Shown piece by piece: positions 712 to 54,250 of a stretch of DNA of 64,000 bases. Source of the stretch: Yponomeuta sedellus (lineage: Eukaryota; Arthropoda; Insecta; Lepidoptera; Yponomeutidae); contig OW203732.1 in assembly GCA_934045075.1 (NCBI GenBank), positions 8,581,001-8,645,000 on the forward strand, read 5' to 3'. Below the pieces are notes generated by a model that saw only the letters and a list, made by a program, of their open reading frames with translations, was not told the DNA's origin and searched no databases. Every line of letters starts with the position of its first letter. The stretch's first letter is position 1. Made by a program: the position numbers and the translations under genes.

Positions 712-958
712 GTTTCTTCATCTTCTTCTTCATTCTATATTACTCCACTGCTGGACATAGCCCTCCCCTATTGAGTGCCATAGCGCCCTGTCTTCAGCTT
801 GCCGCATCTAGCATCTGCCAGCAGTTTTACGCAGATCGTCATCCCACCCGGTCGGAGGGCGTCCTACACTACGTTTGTTGAGTCGCCGTCTTCACTCAAG
901 AACACGTTTACTCCAACAGTTGTCGGTTCTTCGCGAGATATGGCCAGTCCTCTGCCAC
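712..958 (-). mobile_element. LINE 3'-end fragment (family ending in cagcagtggact)
   Basis: On the minus strand this ends in 'ggctatgtccagcagtgga' followed by a GAA-rich microsatellite. The same tail occurs at 10104-10430, 11299-11483, 30609-30747 and 63178-63375. No coding frame is preserved. Confidence 0.6.
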
Positions 959-1178
959 TTCAGCTCACTTACAGTTTATATTTCACAATACATTTGCCAA
1001 GAGTAGTGACTGAACAATAACTGTTTTAAATTAACAATAACAAATAAAAAGGAGGACCAGACTTAGACTTACTAAAAATGACTCTCTTGGTTATCGACTC
1101 GATATTGTTCTAATTGATATAATCGATCTATCTCGATATTGAAAATTATAACAATTTTCAGTTGAGTTTTCAACTTAC

Positions 1179-1428
1179 AAACATACTCCAGCGGTACAAT
1201 GGTAAGGCAATCGAAGATCAGCAGAAAGCAATGTCGCCTGTAAGCTCTGATATTCTGTCGCACAAGTGGCCAGAATGCGTGAAGCAAGTTTATGACGATA
1301 TCTGTGAAGTAGATTGCTTCGCAGATAAAAATGGATACGTCCCACATGAAGGAGTACTTGTCTTCGAAATAGTAGACCAGGATGAGTTGGACGACAAACA
1401 CGTACACCACGGTAAGAACGATTATTGT
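1179..1428 (-). CDS. Internal exon of a cyclic-nucleotide-gated/HCN-type ion channel (S1-S3 region)
   Basis: A 250-nt open exon read on the minus strand, bounded by a polypyrimidine tract and AG (1430-1429) and by a consensus GTAAGT donor (1178-1173). It enters in phase 0 and leaves in phase 1. The 83 residues start with a hydrophobic helix (TIIVLTVVYVFVVQLILVYY), continue with WDVSIFICEAIYFTDIVINL, an S2-like helix ending in an acidic pair, and then a basic linker and FDCLTIVPLEYV, an S3-like helix with the Asp and Pro usual for CNG/HCN channels. Known role of the family: cation channels of the plasma membrane gated by cyclic nucleotides or voltage. The pore, S4 and cyclic-nucleotide-binding domain are not in the window and would lie beyond the left edge; N-terminal exons should lie to the right but none was recognised. 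Assignment rests on helix pattern and motif resemblance only. Confidence 0.6.
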
Positions 1429-1463
1429 CTGGAAAGAAAACGAGTTTTAGTAAAGGTCTTAAC

Positions 1464-1826
1464 AATACATACATAATACATACATACATACATACATACA
1501 TACATACATACATACATACATACATACATACATACATACATACATACATACATACATACATACATACATACATACATACATACATACATACATACATACA
1601 TACATACATACATACATACATACATACATACATACATACATACATACATACATACATACATACATACATACATACATACATACATACATACATACATACA
1701 TACATACATACATACATACATACATACATACATACATACATACATGCATGCATGCATACATACATACATACATACATACATACATACATACATACATACA
1801 TACATACATACATACATACATACATA
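1464..1826. repeat. (CATA)n tetranucleotide microsatellite, about 90 copies
   Basis: Almost perfect CATA repeats, interrupted once by 'catgcatgcatg' near 1744. On the minus strand it is (TATG)n directly following the 3' end of the LINE fragment at 1827-2190, so it is most simply that LINE's terminal microsatellite, expanded. Confidence 0.95.
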
Positions 1827-2190
1827 ACCTAACGCCTGTTTCCCAGAGGGGTAGACAGAGACTAGGGACTGCCACTTGCCACGATCCTGACAGATCACCT
1901 TTGCTTTATCAACATTCATAAGTCGTTCCATGCACACACGCCGGTTCCGGGTACTTTTTATCTTCCCCTTTCCTGATACATCCCCTATTTGGTCGATGTA
2001 TGTCCACCTGGGACGTCCCTCACCAGCCCTCCCACTCACATTCGCAGTATATATTTGTTTTGTCAATCTTTCTTTCTTCATCCTCTCCACATGTCCAAAC
2101 CAACGCAACATTCCTTTCTCAATTCTAGCCACTACATCCTTTTTCAGTCCACAACGTTCTCTAATCAGACTATTGTGTACCTTTAACCTT
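1827..2190 (-). mobile_element. 3' end of a non-LTR retrotransposon (RT C-terminus plus 3' UTR)
   Basis: The minus strand from about 2132 encodes GMLRWFGHVERMKKERL and GEGRPRWTYIDQIGDV, the well-known 'LRWFGHVxRM ... GRPRxxW' C-terminal signature of insect non-LTR retrotransposon ORF2 proteins. The 3' UTR follows and runs into the (TATG)n array. Related 3' ends without the coding part are at 36839-36900 and 60566-60680. The element is strongly 5'-truncated and dead. Confidence 0.75.
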
Positions 2191-2208
2191 TAACCAAACA
2201 ATTCTTAT

Positions 2209-2392
2209 ATTATTTTTAATGCACTAACCCGTGCTGAGGACAATTTTAAAAACCTATTTAGATGCTAAAATTTCCACCCATGCCGAGATTCGGGACCTCT
2301 GGCTAGCCCTCTCCCAACTGAGCTAATGGGCGACTCATCGGCATCAGTGAAATTTCCAACCTCTTTACAATACTCTCTGTATTACGTACAGA
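2209..2392 (-). mobile_element. SINE-1 copy with 14-bp target duplication
   Basis: tRNA-derived SINE in minus orientation: the tail ('cactaacccgtgct') is on the left, the B-box-like region in the middle and the 5' end, truncated at 'acgtacag', on the right. It is flanked by 'caaacaattcttat' at 2195-2208 and 2393-2406, a perfect 14-bp target-site duplication. Confidence 0.9.
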
Positions 2393-2406
2393 CAAACAAT
2401 TCTTAT

Positions 2407-2804
2407 CAAATCTAACCTAACCTAACAGCCTGTAGTTGTCCACTGCTAGACGTAGTGCTCCTCCTAGCACGCTACTTCTTGCTAAACTAATCAAACCATT
2501 ACGTCTACAAGGAAACTCTTAACCAAAAAAACCAGCGTCCATAAAGCGAAGTTCACAATTAGCATACGGCCCAGAAATCAATTCTTGCACATCGCCTATA
2601 ACTTTTAGAAATCAAATGACTTTAGGCGCTGCGACTACATTTTAGCAAGGTAGGTACCGGACAGAGACTGAATATAAAGTCCAAACAAACAAGTACATTA
2701 GTGTTATAAAAAAGTAAAAATCAGTTAAATTATGATACTCGTACTTAAAGACATTTTTCCTCTTTTGTTTGTTTCTTTCTAATGTATAATATGTACCCCT
2801 AGTA
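2407..2804. other. No gene seen
   Basis: Unassigned AT-rich DNA. Only a decayed LINE-tail piece at about 2428-2480 ('gtccactgctagac') is recognisable. There is no open frame with splice sites. Confidence 0.5.
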
Positions 2805-3370
2805 AATTCCACACAACACAAATACTTGTCCTGTTTCCAAACTAAGATACCCCTTGATTACACTATTTTTATTTTTAATGCACTAACCCGTGCTAAGGAA
2901 CAAATTTAAAAACCTATTTAGAGGCTAAAAATTTCACCCATGCCGGGATTCGAACCCGCAACCTCTGGCTATCCGTACCAGCGCTCTACCAATTGAGCCA
3001 ATGGGCGACTCACCACATCAGTGAAATTTTCGAACCTCTTTACAATATTCTCTGTATTACGTACAGGCAGCGACATCTGACTTAAGCAAATTGCATTACT
3101 TACAGCCCCGACTACCTACTTTGCAGTTAGGTTTAACATCGGAACGATATCACTGTACTCACATGATTACACTATTTTTATTTTTAATGCACTAACCCGT
3201 GCTAAGGAACAAATTTAAAAACCTAAGATACCCCTGCTATAGTAACCAGGTAATGACATCAGACACACGGAAATACACCCAGACCATGGCCATTTGTACA
3301 AAAATACGGAAGCCCCCAGTGGGTTAAACAGATGTGACATCACTAGGCCAACGAGGCTAACATGAGTAAA
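2805..3370 (-). mobile_element. SINE-3 (tRNA-derived) carrying a SINE-1 insertion
   Basis: The SINE-3 family is seen more completely at 19570-19793 and 20190-20420. Here its two halves (2805-2854 and 3223-3370) are separated by SINE-1 at 2855-3222. Shared landmarks are 'cttgtcctg', 'aaactaagatacc' and the terminal 'aggccaacgaggct'. Confidence 0.8.
2855..3222 (-). mobile_element. SINE-1 full copy plus extra tail (tandem dimer)
   Basis: Minus orientation. The complete unit (tail, tRNA-like region with 'gggattcgaacccg', 'gtattacgtacaggcagcg' and a 5' region 'cgatatcactgtac') is followed on the right by a second tail (3165-3222). This suggests a dimeric transcript in which a tail abuts the next head. 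It is flanked by the 13-bp duplication 'ctaagatacccct' at 2842-2854 and 3223-3235. Confidence 0.88.
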
Positions 3371-3660
3371 GCACGGTATAATTTTAGGTAGAGTTTATTT
3401 GCAACAAGTCTCTGATAACAATTAGGGTTAAGATTGACATAGCGTTTACCATTTCACCTTTCCAGATTAGCTAAGGGAAAACCCTTTAACAAAAAGAGAG
3501 CAATTAGTACCTGCCAAAATATAGTCCAGGGAGCCTGAACGATGGCTAGAGTGATTGGCTTGAAGCGTCCCTGCCAAAGAAACTGCCCCCGCTGTCTGTC
3601 CGCCAAGTTCTTCCTGCCTATAAAGGTGTGACTGGCATGGCTTATTAACCTGAGAACATT

Positions 3661-3925
3661 AGGTACATAGATGATATAAATATAAATAAATATTCATGGA
3701 CATATTATACAGATCTCGTTAGCCCTATACTAAGTACAACTAAATGACTTGTGTTATAGGTGCTAACTCGACGATAGATTTAATACAATAAATACATAGA
3801 TAACATCCAAGACCCGAGACAAACTAGAAGAGTTCATTTCCTAGTTTGACCCGGCCGGGGATCGAACCCGAGACCTTCGGTTTTACAGTCAGCGTGCCAA
3901 ACCGCTGCGCTACCGAGACCGTATA
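3661..3925 (-). mobile_element. SINE-4, tRNA-derived
   Basis: The right end, read on the minus strand, is a tRNA-like head with A box 'gtagcgcagcggtttggca' and B box 'gggttcgatcccc'. A roughly 190-bp AT-rich body follows to the left. It is followed by non-tRNA sequence and has no other tRNA features, so it is a SINE, not a tRNA gene. Confidence 0.7.
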
Positions 3926-5160
3926 TATAAGCATAAAACCCCACCACCTGAGACAACAATTTACCACTTGCCAAGATCCTGAGTTAGGGGCACATAAATA
4001 AGAATTCTACACCTCAAAAGGAACCTTCTTTATATCTCTCGTCTCAATTAAAATATATGCCAAAAATATATAGGATTTACCCCTAAGAAAAATGGTTTTA
4101 TCGCTACACTTTTGCAGTCCACTGCAAAGCTACAGCCTAAAAGATAAAACACACCAACGCGCTGAAGGTGATACAGTCCATACATACCTCCATATAAATA
4201 CTAATGCAGTAAATGACGTGTGTATGGACCGCCACACCGCTATGGAGTATTGCAACCTTAAATGAAGATAGCGAAAGGATAGATTTCCCTTTCTTTTGAA
4301 AGGCAATATTTTAAGAAAGAAAACAATATTTCAATATCTTTTTCTAAGTTACGTACATTTGTGAATGAATTTGTAGTAGTAGTACCACTCGCTAACTGTG
4401 AAGGAAAACATCGAGAGGAAACTCGAGTGCCTGAAGTGTTTACATACGTTACGATACGTTAGCGCTTCAAATCGGCAATCCGGGGGGGTAGGCCACCACG
4501 GATGTACGTAAATCCACATCCGTGTAGGCGACTCTCTCTTAGAGAAAACCTGTACCCTACAGTAAGACGTATATGGGTTTTATTATTATTTTAGTAAATA
4601 CTCCTTACCCAGCAGTGCCGACAGTGCCTAAAGAGGGTTCACTAACGCTCATCAACATAATGTAACTCACTTGAAACTCGCTACTTATTCCATAATAATA
4701 ACTGTCACCCAACCAAAACCAACAATAGCCGATGAATGTAGTTTAAGCCAACTGGAAACTGGAACCATTTCTTACTTTAAAAAGGCTTGTCATAAAACGG
4801 CGTCTCCAGCAACAAGTTGCGACAGCAAAAGTGAAAACTATTTATTTTCAGCGGCGAAACAACCTTCACCAAACCTAATATGAAATTTGCAGCAGTCCAA
4901 GTTCCAAGCACACTCCTACAGAAGAGCCGTATCGCTGTAGAAACACAAAGTACCTTCCTCCAAATGTATAAAGTTAGCGAAAAGTTAATTTAGGAGCGCA
5001 TTACTGTAATAAGTTCCCTTTCAGCTGTTTCAGCCGTGGCAGGATGAAATACGCAACGTTGAATATTTTGGCGGATATTGAAATTTTACGAGGCGAGTCG
5101 CGTGTAGCCCGTAAAAACAAAGTGGGGCGAGTACGCAAACATCAGACGCTCGCACGACAA
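3926..5160. other. No gene seen
   Basis: No exon-like frame recognised. At 4385-4460 there is a decayed repeat ('gtgaaggaaaacatcg') related to the SINE-5 body. At 5020-5150 there is a GC-richer unique patch of unknown role. Confidence 0.4.
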
Positions 5161-6510: not shown

Positions 6511-6611
6511 TATGGGTACAGTGATATCGTTCCGATGTAAAACCTAACTGCAAAGTAGGTAGTCGGGGCTGTAAGTGATGCAATTTGCTTAAGCCAGATG
6601 TCGCTGCCTGT

Positions 6612-8143
6612 CACCCTCTGCCGGGGGAGCCCCCGCGCTGGGCTGTCAAACAGCTAGACAGGGAGCTGCTGCACGAGGCCGCCGAGGTTGAAGCCTGGGT
6701 CAAGGGCTCCGCCGCCAGCCCCGAGAATACAGACGTTGCGGCAGAGGTTGAGTGGCTTCGCGGGGCGCTAACGCGAGCCTGTGACGTCGCGATGCCCCGT
6801 CTTCGGCCTGGTGCCCCCTTTCGCCGCGTGCACTGGTGGTCAACGGAGATCGCAGAACTGCGGCTCGCCTGCGTGCGCGCTAGGCGTGCACACGCCCGCA
6901 GCCGCCGGCGGCGACGCCGCGATCCCGAGGAGGAGGACCGCCTGCTTGCGGCATACAGGGAGAGCAAGACTGCTCTGTCGACAGCCATTGCGGCGGCAAA
7001 GGAAGCCGGATTTGCGGAAATGCTGGCCTGCCTTGACGCGGACCCGTGGGGCCGTCCGTACCGAATGGTGCGAGACAAGCTCCGCCCGTTTGCGCCGCCA
7101 CTCACCCGGAGCATGAGGCCGGAGACGGTGGACACCGTGGTCGCCGGCCTATTTCCGCCCGCGAATGGCCTTACGCCTCCCCCGATGGGGCTACCGGATG
7201 GGACGGCCGAAACCGAAGTGCCGGAAGTGACGGCGGCAGAGCTCGGTGCCGCTCTACAACGCCTTCGCGGCCGCAGAAAGGCCCCGGGCTTGGATGGGAT
7301 CCCGGGGCGCGCGTTGATCGTCGCCCTGGACCCTCTGGAGGAGAGGTTCAGGGCCTTGCTCACCGCGTGCCTCGTGCGGGGCCAGTTTCCCCGGCCGTGG
7401 AAGGTGGGTAAACTGGTCCTGCTGAGGAAGGAGGGCCGACCGGAGGACTTGCCATCAGGCTACCGCCCGCTCGTTCTCTTGGATGAGGTGGGGAAGCTGT
7501 TCGAGCGCATCCTGGTGGCCCGACTCGTGCGGCACATGGAGATGGTGGGGCTGGACCTTTTCGAGGCCCAATTTGGGTTCCGGCACTTCCGGTCCACCGT
7601 CGACGCGATCCGCAGAGTGAAGGGGATGGCGGAGGAGGCGCTGGCGGGACGCGATATGTTTTTCGCTGTTTCGCTCGACATAGTGAACGCGTTTAATACC
7701 CTCCCCTGGGCCTGCATTGAGGAGGCGCTCCGGTACCACGGCTTCCCGGAGCACATGCGCCGCATCATCGGAGCTTACCTCTCCGAGAGGGAGGTCCGGT
7801 ATCCGGCGCGGGACGAGTGGGCGGCGAAACCCATGTCGCGCGGCGTTCCACAGAGCTCGGCCCTTGGCCCTACGCTGTGGAACATCGGCTTCGACTGGGT
7901 GCTGCGGGGTGCGCTGCCGGAGGGGGCCGGCGTGACCTGCTATGCGGATGACACGCTGGTCACCTCCCGCGGCGCTAACTTTAGCGAAGCGGCCGCGCTC
8001 GCTACCGCGAGTTTAGAGGAGGTGCTTCAGCGCATCCATGGACTGGGGTTGGAGGTGGCGCTCCACAAATGCGAGGCCCTGTGCATTCATGGGCCGCGGA
8101 GGGGGCCGCCGAATGGGGCTCGAGTGACGGTGGATGGGGGGGG
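6612..8143 (+). pseudogene. ORF2 reverse transcriptase part (broken)
   Basis: The protein frame enters from the truncation point. In order it shows a linker rich in Arg, the KAPGLDGIP motif, YRPLVLLDEVGKLFE, QFGFRHFRSTVDAI, the catalytic AVSLDIVNAFNTL, GVPQSSALGP (the family usually has GVPQGS, so one conserved Gly is replaced) and the catalytic YADD within CYADDTLV. The reverse transcriptase would copy its own RNA at a nicked target. The frame is lost in the run of eight G at 8136-8143: a 1-base shift there joins it to the frame at 8144-9109. The apparent ATG at 6585 belongs to the host SINE and is not a real start. Confidence 0.85.
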
Positions 8144-9109
8144 ATCGATGTCGGGTCGGCCATGCGCTACCTCGGCATCGTTCTGGACTCGCGTCTGACG
8201 TTTTGCGAGCACTTCCGACGGCTCGCGCCGCGACTTATGGCCGCGTGCAGTGCCCTCAGCCGCCTGCTGCCGAACGTCGGTGAGCCGAATGCGGCTTGCC
8301 GGTGGCTTTACGCGCTGGTGGTGCGGTCGATGGCGCTGTACGGAGCACCCGTGTGGGAGGACTCCCTGGGGCGGGCGAATAGGGCCCTGCTGCACCGTCC
8401 GCAGAGGGCTATTTGCCTGCGAATGGTGCACGGCTACCGCACCGTCTCTTACGAGGCGGCGTGTGTGCTGGCCGCTTGCCTGCCCTGGGAGATGGATGCA
8501 CGTGTGCTCACGCTGGTGTACGACCGCGTCGCCGAGTGCCGGGCCGCGGGGGAGCCCCCGTCGAGGGAGGAGATGCTGCGTTGGCGCATGCGTGCTCGCA
8601 GACGTCTGCTCATCAGATGGCTGCGCGCACTCGAGGAGCCTACGGCGGGCCACGACACTATCGCCGCGGTGAGGCCGGTTCTCGAGCGATGGCTGACGAG
8701 GAGGCACAAAGTCCTCTCCTTCCACCTTACGCAGCTCCTCTCGGGGCACGGTTGCTTCGGGAGATATCTGTGGAGGGTGGCGGGAGCGGAACCCACACCC
8801 GAGTGCCAGCACTGCGGTCACGACGAGGACACGGCACATCACACGTTGGTGGAGTGCCCGGCGTGGGCGGACGAGAGGGCGGCGCTGACTGTCGTGATAG
8901 GGGTGGACCTGTCGCTGCCGGCCGTCGTGCGCTCGATGGTCGACAGCGAGGTTGCTTGGCGGGCCGTCCAGGCCTTCGCTGAGGCAGTCATGACTGCTAA
9001 AGAGGAGGCTGAGAGGCAGCGCGAGCGTGACCCCGAGGCACGGCGTGGAAGGCGGGAGCGCAGAAGGCGCAGAGCGGGTGTCGGTCAGAGGGTGCAAGAC
9101 CCAGGGTAG
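8144..9109 (+). pseudogene. ORF2 C-terminal part with CCHC zinc finger
   Basis: Continues ORF2 in another frame after the G-run at 8136-8143. It starts with AMRYLGIVLDSRLTF, the typical segment after the RT palm, then RT thumb-like helices, and near the end has CQHCGHDEDTAHHTLVEC, the C-x2-C...H-x4-C finger characteristic of R1-group elements. It closes with an Arg-rich tail and a stop at 9107-9109. The frameshift could be a true mutation or a homopolymer assembly error. Confidence 0.85.
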
Positions 9110-15566: not shown

Positions 15567-27443
<11,877 letters not shown>

Positions 27444-41804: not shown

Positions 41805-42175
41805 ACCAGCATCAGTGAAATTTCGAACCTCTACAATATTCTCTGTATTACTTACAGGCAGCGACATCAGATACAAGAAGATATAATACAGAGAATATTG
41901 TAAAGAGGTACGAAATTTCACTGATGTCGGTGATTCGCCCATTAGTTCAGTTGGAAAGAGCGCTGGCACGGATAGCCAGAGGTCGGTTTGAATCCCGGCA
42001 TGGGTGGAATTTTTAGCTTCTAAATAGGTTATACTATTTTTACTCTTAATGCACTAACCCGTGCTAAGGACAATTTTAAAAACCTATTTAGAGGCTAAAA
42101 ATTCCACCCATGCCGGGATTCGAGCCTGCGACCTCTGGCTATCCGTGCCAAATTCTAAATAGGTTTTTAAAATAC
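41805..42175. mobile_element. Compound of three SINE-1 arms in alternating orientation
   Basis: The minus-orientation 5' part (41812-41876) meets a plus copy (41880-42029, without tail) head to head, which meets a minus copy with tail (42030-42150), which ends in a short plus piece ('ctaaataggtttttaaaat'). No target duplication recognised. Confidence 0.75.
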
Positions 42176-43650
42176 TAAGTGATTCGTATAAATAACTTGA
42201 AGTGTTATTGTAGCCATATTGTTTGAAATGCCGGTGTTTTGTGCTTGCTCTTTGAAATTCCAAATTGCAATTGGGACACTTGCGCCTTAAAAGAATACAC
42301 GGTATTATTTTCAATGGAAAAATGTTCACATACTAAAGATATTTCTGCAAAAATATGGAAAAAGTAAAAATTTGAGTCGCGAGAATACATGACGTCTTAA
42401 TTAGCACCCAAAATATCTCATGTAAGGAAGCACTAGCTTTTCCTTTAGTCTTGTCTTAGGTTCCTCCCTAATATTGCTTAAGTACTTTAATCACGTGATT
42501 TTATTGCCAAACATCGGAACGAAAAAGTAACCGAACATTTCTTTGCCGCGGGCCAATGCGGCGTAAACATAATAATGGTCGAGATAAATGAAGCCACCAC
42601 AGGCAGAAAATTGCCCTCCGTATCTCCGATTGACATTTTGACCGAGAGTCGCGGAAAAATCTCGTTTCATCGATCCGTTCCAATCAACCCGCTCATTGCT
42701 GATCGGAGAGCGGGCTTCACACAAAAAGCCGCCTCCCTCCACTGACCTCCATGGCATTAAGCCCGACGAATGACTTTTTGACTCCGCGTGGACATATTTC
42801 ATGTACCTATAGTCTATTTATTTAAGTAATTAAATAAATGTAAATAATCGTGAATAAGGCCGCCAATTGTATTTTATCTTTTGTAACTGCTGTTTCTCTA
42901 ATAATTTTTCCGGTATTTAATAAAGAATATTCGTATCTTATCTTATCTTGATTAGTCTTTTTACTGAAGTATACAAATAAAAAAAATTTTGATTTTACTT
43001 CAATTTCATGAAACTACACAGATTGAATATTTTTTTGTGTTTCGGTAATAAGACGTAGGTACCTATCAAGAGTGTTTAGATTTTTTTAAGTACCTACTTA
43101 AACCAATGAACTGTAGATAGACAGATAAATGGATAATGGAAAAAAAAACTTTATTGATAGAACCATGGTTGAATTTACATTCACTTTCCACTGTTACGAA
43201 ATAATAGTTAAAGTGAACAAAACTGGCAAGTGTCTGCTACTAAGTAGCCTATATTACTTAAACACTTCACTGCACATAAAAATGGTGATTACAGAGTAAT
43301 TTATGTATAATTCATATACCTCCGAAAAATTTTATTTGTTTACACCTACGAGTACCTCCTTCTCCAATGCATTGCTTCAGCCCATACAAAAGTTGTCTGG
43401 AAGAGGTCATTTTTTGTGACAAGGCCGCCGTCTGTCTGTCTGTCCCAAGAGTTAAATTGTTTGTCTCAGCCGAACTAGTGAAAGTGAAAATATTTTATTT
43501 ACCAAAAATAAATGTTTACAGGATACAAATCAATAAATATGTAGGTACTATTTTTATGGTAAAAACGAAGGGGCTCGGCTTATTGCTATGAGTGCACGTG
43601 TAGTCAATAGCGCTGATTTTCAGCCCGTCACTCTTTTCCGCATTTTAAGA
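42176..43650. other. No gene seen; LINE tails and a unique island
   Basis: 42850-42955 is a plus-sense LINE tail ending in (TCTTA)n, of the same family as the giant array. 43370-43470 is another LINE-tail fragment ('gttgtctggaagaggtcatt'). 42540-42790 is a unique GC-richer island without a convincing exon. Confidence 0.5.
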
Positions 43651-49392: not shown

Positions 49393-49490
49393 TTAAAAAC
49401 CTATTTAGAGGCTAAAAATTCCGCCCATGCTGGTACGGTTAGCCAGAGGTCGCGGGTTCGAGTCCCGGCATGGGCGGAATTTTTAGCCTC

Positions 49491-51937
49491 TAAGATAAGA
49501 TAAGATAAGATAAGATAAGATAAGATAAGATAAGATAAGATAAGATAAGATAAGATAAGATAAGATAAGATAAGATAAGATAAGATAAGATAAGATAAGA
49601 TAAGATAAGATAAGATAAGATAAGATAAGATAAGATAAGATAAGATAAGATAAGATAAGATAAGATAAGATAAGATAAGATAAGATAAGATAAGATAAGA
49701 TAAGATAAGATAAGATAAGATAAGATAAGATAAGATAAGATAAGATAAGATAAGATAAGATAAGATAAGATAAGATAAGATAAGATAAGATAAGATAAGA
49801 TAAGATAAGATAAGATAAGATAAGATAAGATAAGATAAGATAAGATAAGATAAGATAAGATAAGATAAGATAAGATAAGATAAGATAAGATAAGATAAGA
49901 TAAGATAAGATAAGATAAGATAAGATAAGATAAGATAAGATAAGATAAGATAAGATAAGATAAGATAAGATAAGATAAGATAAGATAAGATAAGATAAGA
50001 TAAGATAAGATAAGATAAGATAAGATAAGATAAGATAAGATAAGATAAGATAAGATAAGATAAGATAAGATAAGATAAGATAAGATAAGATAAGATAAGA
50101 TAAGATAAGATAAGATAAGATAAGATAAGATAAGATAAGATAAGATAAGATAAGATAAGATAAGATAAGATAAGATAAGATAAGATAAGATAAGATAAGA
50201 TAAGATAAGATAAGATAAGATAAGATAAGATAAGATAAGATAAGATAAGATAAGATAAGATAAGATAAGATAAGATAAGATAAGATAAGATAAGATAAGA
50301 TAAGATAAGATAAGATAAGATAAGATAAGATAAGATAAGATAAGATAAGATAAGATAAGATAAGATAAGATAAGATAAGATAAGATAAGATAAGATAAGA
50401 TAAGATAAGATAAGATAAGATAAGATAAGATAAGATAAGATAAGATAAGATAAGATAAGATAAGATAAGATAAGATAAGATAAGATAAGATAAGATAAGA
50501 TAAGATAAGATAAGATAAGATAAGATAAGATAAGATAAGATAAGATAAGATAAGATAAGATAAGATAAGATAAGATAAGATAAGATAAGATAAGATAAGA
50601 TAAGATAAGATAAGATAAGATAAGATAAGATAAGATAAGATAAGATAAGATAAGATAAGATAAGATAAGATAAGATAAGATAAGATAAGATAAGATAAGA
50701 TAAGATAAGATAAGATAAGATAAGATAAGATAAGATAAGATAAGATAAGATAAGATAAGATAAGATAAGATAAGATAAGATAAGATAAGATAAGATAAGA
50801 TAAGATAAGATAAGATAAGATAAGATAAGATAAGATAAGATAAGATAAGATAAGATAAGATAAGATAAGATAAGATAAGATAAGATAAGATAAGATAAGA
50901 TAAGATAAGATAAGATAAGATAAGATAAGATAAGATAAGATAAGATAAGATAAGATAAGATAAGATAAGATAAGATAAGATAAGATAAGATAAGATAAGA
51001 TAAGATAAGATAAGATAAGATAAGATAAGATAAGATAAGATAAGATAAGATAAGATAAGATAAGATAAGATAAGATAAGATAAGATAAGATAAGATAAGA
51101 TAAGATAAGATAAGATAAGATAAGATAAGATAAGATAAGATAAGATAAGATAAGATAAGATAAGATAAGATAAGATAAGATAAGATAAGATAAGATAAGA
51201 TAAGATAAGATAAGATAAGATAAGATAAGATAAGATAAGATAAGATAAGATAAGATAAGATAAGATAAGATAAGATAAGATAAGATAAGATAAGATAAGA
51301 TAAGATAAGATAAGATAAGATAAGATAAGATAAGATAAGATAAGATAAGATAAGATAAGATAAGATAAGATAAGATAAGATAAGATAAGATAAGATAAGA
51401 TAAGATAAGATAAGATAAGATAAGATAAGATAAGATAAGATAAGATAAGATAAGATAAGATAAGATAAGATAAGATAAGATAAGATAAGATAAGATAAGA
51501 TAAGATAAGATAAGATAAGATAAGATAAGATAAGATAAGATAAGATAAGATAAGATAAGATAAGATAAGATAAGATAAGATAAGATAAGATAAGATAAGA
51601 TAAGATAAGATAAGATAAGATAAGATAAGATAAGATAAGATAAGATAAGATAAGATAAGATAAGATAAGATAAGATAAGATAAGATAAGATAAGATAAGA
51701 TAAGATAAGATAAGATAAGATAAGATAAGATAAGATAAGATAAGATAAGATAAGATAAGATAAGATAAGATAAGATAAGATAAGATAAGATAAGATAAGA
51801 TAAGATAAGATAAGATAAGATAAGATAAGATAAGATAAGATAAGATAAGATAAGATAAGATAAGATAAGATAAGATAAGATAAGATAAGATAAGATAAGA
51901 TAAGATAAGATAAGATAAGATAAGATAAGATAAGATA

Positions 51938-51996
<59 letters not shown>

Positions 51997-52584
51997 AGAT
52001 AAGATAAGATAAGATAAGATAAGATAAGATAAGATAAGATAAGATAAGATAAGATAAGATAAGATAAGATAAGATAAGATAAGATAAGATAAGATAAGAT
52101 AAGATAAGATAAGATAAGATAAGATAAGATAAGATAAGATAAGATAAGATAAGATAAGATAAGATAAGATAAGATAAGATAAGATAAGATAAGATAAGAT
52201 AAGATAAGATAAGATAAGATAAGATAAGATAAGATAAGATAAGATAAGATAAGATAAGATAAGATAAGATAAGATAAGATAAGATAAGATAAGATAAGAT
52301 AAGATAAGATAAGATAAGATAAGATAAGATAAGATAAGATAAGATAAGATAAGATAAGATAAGATAAGATAAGATAAGATAAGATAAGATAAGATAAGAT
52401 AAGATAAGATAAGATAAGATAAGATAAGATAAGATAAGATAAGATAAGATAAGAAGATAAGATAAGATAAGATAAGATAAGATAAGATAAGATAAGATAA
52501 GATAAGATAAGATAAGATAAGATAAGATAAGATAAGATAAGATAAGATAAGATAAGATAAGATAAGATAAGATAAGATAAGATA

Positions 52585-52643
<59 letters not shown>

Positions 52644-53151
52644 AGATAAGATAAGATAAGATAAGATAAGATAAGATAAGATAAGATAAGATAAGATAAG
52701 ATAAGATAAGATAAGATAAGATAAGATAAGATAAGATAAGATAAGATAAGATAAGATAAGATAAGATAAGATAAGATAAGATAAGATAAGATAAGATAAG
52801 ATAAGATAAGATAAGATAAGATAAGATAAGATAAGATAAGATAAGATAAGATAAGATAAGATAAGATAAGATAAGATAAGATAAGATAAGATAAGATAAG
52901 ATAAGATAAGATAAGATAAGATAAGATAAGATAAGATAAGATAAGATAAGATAAGATAAGATAAGATAAGATAAGATAAGATAAGATAAGATAAGATAAG
53001 ATAAGATAAGATAAGATAAGATAAGATAAGATAAGATAAGATAAGATAAGATAAGATAAGATAAGATAAGATAAGATAAGATAAGATAAGATAAGATAAG
53101 ATAAGATAAGATAAGATAAGATAAGATAAGATAAGATAAGATAAGATAAGG
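49491..53151. repeat. (TAAGA)n pentanucleotide satellite, about 730 copies
   Basis: An almost flawless 5-bp repeat over 3.66 kb. Only a few slips are visible: a lost base near 51966, an altered unit near 52453 ('agaagataag') and another near 52612. On the minus strand it is (TCTTA)n, which is open in every frame, so it creates a very long meaningless ORF. Confidence 0.98.
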
Positions 53152-54065
53152 TAAGTAAGAAGATAAGGTAAGGTAAGGTAAGGTAAGGTAAGGTAAGGTA
53201 AGGTAAGGTAAGGTAAGGTAAGGTAAGGTAAGGTAAGGTAAGGTAAGGTAAGGTAAGGTAAGGTAAGGTAAGGTAAGGTAAAGGTAAGGTAAGGTAAGGT
53301 AAGGTAAGGTAAGGTAAGGTAAGGTAAGGTAAGGTAAGGTAAGGTAAGGTAAGGTAAGGTAAGGTAAGGTAAGGTAAGGTAAGGTAAGGTAAGGTAAGGT
53401 AAGGTAAGGTAAGGTAAGGTAAGGTAAGGTAAGGTAAGGTAAGGTAAGGTAAGGTAAGGTAAGGTAAGGTAAGGTAAGGTAAGGTAAGGTAAGGTAAGGT
53501 AAGGTAAGGTAAGTAAGGTAAGGTAAGGTAAGGTAAGGTAAGGTAAGGTAAGGTAAGGTAAGGTAAGGTAAGGTAGGTAAGGTAAGGTAAGGTAAGGTAA
53601 GGTAAGGTAAGGTAAGGTAAGGTAAGGTAAGGTAAGGTAAGGTAAGGTAAGGTAAGGTAAGGTAAGGTAAGGTAAGGTAAGGTAAGGTATAAGGTAAGGT
53701 AAGGTAAGGTAAGGTAAGGTAAGGTAAGGTAAGGTAAGGTAAGGTAAGGTAAGGTAAGGTAAGGTAAGGTAAGGTAAGGTAAGGTAAGGTAAGGTAAGGT
53801 AAGGTAAGGTAAGGTAAGGTAAGGTAAGGTAAGGTAAGGTAAGGTAAGGTAAGGTAAGGTAAGGTAAGGTAAGATAAGATAAGATAAGATAAGATAAGGT
53901 AAGGTAAGGTAAGGTAAGATAAGGTAAGGTAAGGTAAGGTAAGGTAAGGTAAGGTAAGGTAAGGTAAGGTAAGGTAAGGTAAGGTAAGGTAAGGTAAGGT
54001 AAGGTAAGGTAAGGTAAGGTAAGGTAAGGTAAGGTAAGGTAAGGTAAGATAAGATAAGATAAGAT
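53152..54065. repeat. (GGTAA)n pentanucleotide satellite with TAAGA islands, about 175 copies
   Basis: The array changes from TAAGA to GGTAA units within about 20 bp near 53152-53170 and returns briefly to TAAGA at 53872-53896 and 54047-54065. Single-base slips are near 53280, 53513, 53574 and 53690. Confidence 0.97.
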
Positions 54066-54171
54066 AAGAATATTCTTTATTGTATACCGTAAAAATAGTT
54101 ACAGAAACGACAGATACAAAAGAACAAATACAATTGGCGGCCTTATTGCTAAATAAATAGGTTTTCATATT
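54066..54171 (-). mobile_element. 106-bp LINE 3' end from which the satellite extends
   Basis: Antisense of the LINE tail: 'gaatattctttattgtatac' and 'ttggcggccttattgctaa', the same order as at 25030-25125. The repeat array is attached at the 3' terminus of this LINE, where other copies carry a few TCTTA units. Confidence 0.85.
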
Positions 54172-54250
54172 CCTCTAAATAGGTTTTTAAAATTGTCCTC
54201 AGCACGGGTTAATAGAACAAAAAGAATATAACTGTAAGATACCTACCAAC

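Follow-up and report, generated by a model that had tools for sequence, protein, structure and literature searches.

How does a tandem repeat of several kilobases come to begin exactly where a fragment of a retrotransposon ends? The question is raised by a locus of the moth Yponomeuta sedellus, contained in a stretch of 64,000 nucleotides (contig OW203732.1, positions 8,581,001 to 8,645,000) that is called the window here and is numbered from its first letter. A first-pass annotation of this window had proposed that a giant pentanucleotide satellite was born from the tail of a tiny LINE inserted into a SINE. The present analysis partly supports that interpretation, for one locus and not for a repeat occurring at many loci: an ordinary 5'-truncated LINE probably retrotransposed into a SINE, and its TTATC tail probably expanded later in situ.

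The insert occupies 49494-54171 (4,678 bp) of a tRNA-derived SINE and is flanked by CCTCTAA at 49487-49493 and 54172-54178, as had been proposed (Table 1). Read in the sense of the LINE, it consists of 18 bp of filler, 86 bp of LINE 3' end and 4,574 bp of array. The LINE 3' end announced by the annotation is present, but the length of 106 bp given for it does not hold, this stretch dividing into LINE sequence proper and filler. On the plus strand the order is SINE, CCTCTAA, (TAAGA)n, (GGTAA)n, four TAAGA-type units, the reversed LINE end, the filler, CCTCTAA and the remaining SINE. Counted in LINE sense, TTATC makes up 740 units of the array proper (49494-54067) and TTACC 168, and TRF delimits a period-5 array of 917 copies with 99% matches at 49491-54069. 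Outward from the LINE, four TTATC units are followed by the TTACC block, which is interspersed with TTATC units, alone or a few together, and with small indels, and then by 729 TTATC units arranged in runs of 107, 31, 97 and 494, with three deletions of 1-2 bases between the runs. The last 494 units, those far from the LINE, are perfect and belong to an uninterrupted period-5 run of 2,477 bp (49491-51967) at the LINE-distal end; a perfect pentamer run of 2.5 kb is far beyond chance. The TTATC units abut the LINE end without a gap, and LINE end and repeat are both enclosed by the duplications that begin at 49487 and 54172, which are two features of the LINE-tail microsatellites of the Tay et al. 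type. LINE end, tail and array lie between the duplications as the single unit that had been described, and the array starts at the LINE's own terminal repeat. Like satellite DNA, it is a long tandem array (4,574 bp), at one locus.

Table 1. Features of the insertion locus, in window coordinates.
Feature	Position	Strand	Basis or remark
Fold-back arm at the 5' edge of the host SINE, repeating its 3' part in inverted orientation	49393..49436	-	Inverted repeat and complement match
Host SINE, tRNA-derived part, left of insertion	49427..49493	+	Ten window matches across the join, nine aligned; start approximate
Target-site duplication CCTCTAA, copy 1	49487..49493	.	Repeated at 54172..54178
Perfect LINE-distal block of 494 TTATC units, read as in the LINE (GATAA on the plus strand)	49494..51967	-	Uninterrupted period-5 run of 2,477 bp from 49491
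TTATC runs of 97, 31 and 107 units, with three deletions of 1-2 bases	51968..53150	-	Boundaries approximate
Block of 168 variant TTACC (GGTAA) units, interspersed with a few TTATC units and indels	53151..54047	-	Boundaries approximate
Four TTATC units adjoining the LINE, presumed remnant of the original tail	54048..54067	-	
LINE 3' end, 86 bp, three mismatches against the sequence common to related copies	54068..54153	-	
Filler of 18 bp at the 5' junction of the LINE, sharing 12 bp with the SINE flank beside it	54154..54171	-	
Target-site duplication CCTCTAA, copy 2	54172..54178	.	Repeats 49487..49493
Host SINE continued, right of insertion	54172..54214	+	SINE matches; end approximate

Array length and purity were read from one assembly, and it is highly improbable that they are wrong through collapsed or badly polished reads. 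The three distal interruptions of the TTATC units, being deletions of 1-2 bases, do resemble consensus errors, but the flanks are continuous and structurally unique, variants follow one another in order along the array, the large contigs suggest long reads, and a collapse would mean a longer true array and not an absent one.

Several properties of the array are by-products of its unit. Because of the unit sequence, the plus strand of 49494-54067 contains 742 GATA-type (WGATAR) sites and 167 AGGTAAG sites that resemble 5' splice sites. Three minus-strand frames of 1,528-1,565 codons are stop-free because the pentamer itself is; they do not point to a gene, and a coding array was rejected. A telomere-like origin was rejected as well, the units being TTATC and TTACC and not TTAGG, the insect telomere repeat. 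Minimum-energy folds of 12-unit strands gave 0 for all eight motifs compared, known expanders included, and were uninformative.

The host SINE has many copies within the window, and a BLAST search of the joined flanks against the window found that the other SINE places spanning the insertion point are all uninterrupted there (10 of 10). Nine of these were aligned, eight of them matching the site pattern and the ninth (41658) being substituted but unbroken, and the tenth (41962-42030) was read directly; the site reads CATCTAA in the copy at 2308 and TTCTAA in the tenth. Compared with these paralogues, the interrupted SINE has one extra CCTCTAA, and this is the pattern left by target-primed reverse transcription. 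Of the 18 bp of filler, 12 (AAAACCTATTTA in LINE sense) are found again in the SINE sequence next to it, in a match that extends into the duplication. When the flank was compared minus the duplication, the match was 9 nt long and was equalled by 111 of 20,000 random 18-mers from the window, so that this test is weak when taken alone. At the host SINE there is also an inverted repeat of 32 nt with 94% identity (49405-49436 and 49462-49493), and 49393-49411 is the complement of 54172-54190 at 19 of 19 positions. Among the nine other SINE copies in the alignment, two (near 42150 and 56218) likewise have inverted 3' segments at this edge, though shorter ones, and such pieces at the 5' edge of the SINE suggest fold-back priming during cDNA synthesis.

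What a tail of this LINE family ordinarily looks like was read from its other copies. A search of the moth's own genome for the LINE end gave 1,181 candidates, of which 40 were scored; one is the present copy, and the 39 others, which are the best matches, were compared with it. Directly after the LINE end, these 39 carry no exact TTATC unit in 4 cases, one in 6, two in 24, three in 4 and five in a single case, so that the tail copy number, which the annotation had wished to see plotted across the assembly, runs from 0 to 5 in a set that is biased to young copies because it was chosen by score. The two further copies that the annotation had located in the window, at 25030 and 42850, were recovered by BLAST at 25045-25122 and 42853-42930 with two or three tail units. 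The first of these sits between exons of a gene on the minus strand (22830-26539) whose nearby pieces carry MATH and ubiquitin hydrolase (UCH) domains and which we take to be USP7-like.

The element behind these ends is a LINE with recognizable enzymes. In copy L010, frames matching an endonuclease (PF14529, E 2e-6) and a reverse transcriptase (RVT_1, E 8e-14) lie upstream of the matching 3' end on the same strand. Five other pieces or open reading frames examined with them gave no Pfam match; a 181-aa frame upstream in L010 has none either. The C-terminal piece has 196 protein matches, and the species-named ones among the 120 listed are lepidopteran, bar one archaeal metagenome bin. Between the end of the reverse transcriptase frame and the tail, L010 has a 3' UTR of about 360 bp, and a second copy, L026, has 430 bp in common with it across this junction. 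A 3' UTR of this length misfits the extremely short one in the description of RTE elements by Tay et al., so that the LINE is not called RTE here. Target duplications of 10 bp (L013) and 9 bp (L021) were found elsewhere in the family by a crude search, which gave duplications of at least 9 bp in just these two of the copies examined. Viral contigs searched for the LINE end with two units contained no match; one of these contigs has a nine-unit GATAA run. Within the window, another LINE with long reading frames and a reverse transcriptase match lies on the plus strand at 6579-9109.

The tail lengths of the relatives bear directly on when the array arose. It could have been made in one step at insertion, through repeated slippage of the reverse transcriptase along the TTATC units of its RNA template; the whole array does lie inside the target duplication, and slippage in reverse transcription is given by Tay et al. 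(2010; PMC2887409) as one source of such tail repeats. We nevertheless regard a single step as unlikely, given that all 39 of the other, best-scoring copies have at most five units, and that repeated local amplification is evident from the TTACC block and from interruptions becoming fewer with distance from the LINE. Part of the array may still come from slippage at insertion.

Growth after insertion is indicated by four observations together: no examined relative exceeds five units, the LINE piece has diverged at 3 of 86 sites while the 2,477-bp run is perfect, the interruptions are polar, and a variant block of 168 units needs local amplification. A run of 2,477 bp with the 3.5% divergence of the LINE piece should contain about 87 substitutions, and even with 0.6% about 15, against none observed. 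Two of the three substitutions that separate the piece from its family are absent from all 38 copies aligned, the third being common to L012; some may therefore stem from the source element, which makes the age argument soft, and homogenisation could erase the age of an array. The polarity is seen in the position of the interruptions, all of which (n = 12, counted by hand) are confined to the 46% of the array closest to the LINE, with P = 9e-5 under a uniform distribution in a test chosen post hoc. Taken together, the evidence supports growth in place, the far end having been homogenised recently, and gives no date. The annotation's claim that the array was born from the LINE tail is supported by the structure and by the short tails of the relatives; the order, tail first and expansion afterwards, is inferred from purity and polarity.

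A different origin would be the capture of a pre-existing TTATC/TTACC satellite beside the LINE end, for instance by copying at a break. As for other simple arrays in this genome, in 32 arbitrary samples of 2.5 kb (80,000 bases) there are two short-unit arrays of at least 50 bp, one of which is the edge of an almost perfect (AAAT)n array of 1,971 bp, made of 383 and 106 units around an AAAC break (C10:7999503-8001473, that is, L066 4004-4501 continued in L055 1-1473) and not visibly at a LINE tail. Another nine arrays of at least 50 bp occur in 20 LINE neighbourhoods (118,520 bases). All six of the (ATAC)n-type arrays examined, 114-362 bp long (window 1465-1826 and in L011, L018, L020, L021 and L024), join one sequence family on the same side; at window 1465-1826, a minus-strand frame ending at the array presumably resembles the C-terminus of a LINE protein, and a further (ATAC)n-type array of 81 bp in L017 stands outside the six compared. 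A tandem unit of 117 bp is also present in the window, at 309-660, in three copies with 97% matches. Repeats of 100-400 bp linked to tails or elements are common in this genome and kilobase arrays occur elsewhere in it, so that what is unusual at the present locus is size combined with a fully bounded origin. For a capture, the 2-kb (AAAT)n array shows that long arrays exist in the genome, and a foreign source might explain the arrangement of two motifs in blocks; we judge it very improbable all the same, for the array has the motif found in the tails of this LINE family and starts in register at the LINE end. No further TTATC array was met in the 52 other loci sampled (198,520 bases), a sample far too small to exclude a source.

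The history that we favour, an ordinary insertion followed by growth of the tail, goes beyond the observed structure, duplication, empty-site paralogues and tail lengths of the relatives, and may be sketched as follows. A lepidopteran LINE with endonuclease and reverse transcriptase would have entered the SINE by target-primed reverse transcription, its cDNA ending early, after 86 bp; the filler would have formed at the 5' junction, 12 bp of it seemingly templated by the nearby strand of the SINE, and the site would have been closed by a 7-bp duplication of the target. The starting tail probably had about 2-5 TTATC units, as in the relatives, and would have grown in situ to about 915 units at some later time through replication-linked duplication, be it slippage, template switching or unequal exchange. 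A T-to-C unit variant near the LINE was presumably amplified to the 168-copy TTACC block, and the TTATC units of the far side would have grown most recently, in polar fashion, to give the 494 perfect copies.

Since the insertion is bounded by duplications and has dozens of unexpanded sister copies, it can be said where the array started, a rarity among repeats of such size. It is a doubtful extension, which we put forward only tentatively, that the genome routinely turns retroelement tails into kilobase arrays, satellites being born in euchromatin insertion by insertion with growth polarised to the element-distal side; the locus would then be a staged snapshot of unit variant, block amplification and recent pure growth.

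The process is known in kind, and the array is a very large and clean example of it. In Lepidoptera, the 3' ends of RTE retrotransposons generate microsatellite families, and the LINE ends described by Tay et al. (2010; PMC2887409) carry 2 to more than 35 units, with target duplications. The present locus shares with them a repeat at a truncated non-LTR 3' end within target duplications, which they report in many lepidopteran species; it differs from what they describe in its roughly 915 units and two motif blocks and, as far as L010 shows, in a 3' UTR of roughly 360 bp where theirs is extremely short. A kilobase pentamer array at a lepidopteran LINE tail was not found in the literature within the terms searched. 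Short repeats inside transposable elements are also described as seeds of satellite DNA (PMC9659126, PMC12628747), and the array resembles these satellites in being a tandem repeat seeded by the short repeat of an element; those described are multi-locus and abundant, whereas one locus is known here.

The closest structural parallels come from human disease, where, as here, an expanded pentamer at a retroelement tail occurs, in our case together with a block of variant units. In CANVAS, an AAGGG expansion lies in the tail of an AluSx3 in RFC1 (PMC11126591); motif and host differ from ours, and the CANVAS expansion is a disease allele. In SCA10, an Alu inside a LINE-1 carries ATTCT at its tail in 800-4500 units with ATTCC interruptions (PMC9099484), so that nested retroelements, an A/T-rich tail pentamer, hundreds to thousands of units and T-to-C variant units (ATTCC there, TTACC here) are common to both; the SCA10 motif is described as arising by mutation of a poly(A) tail, unlike the native tail motif of the LINE in the moth. 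This parallel is one of structure and implies no effect. The locus offers a natural, non-disease case for asking how a tail crosses the threshold to runaway growth, and it joins in one readable place the seeding of microsatellites by LINE tails, the origin of human pentamer expansions at retroelement tails and the need of satellites for a seed.
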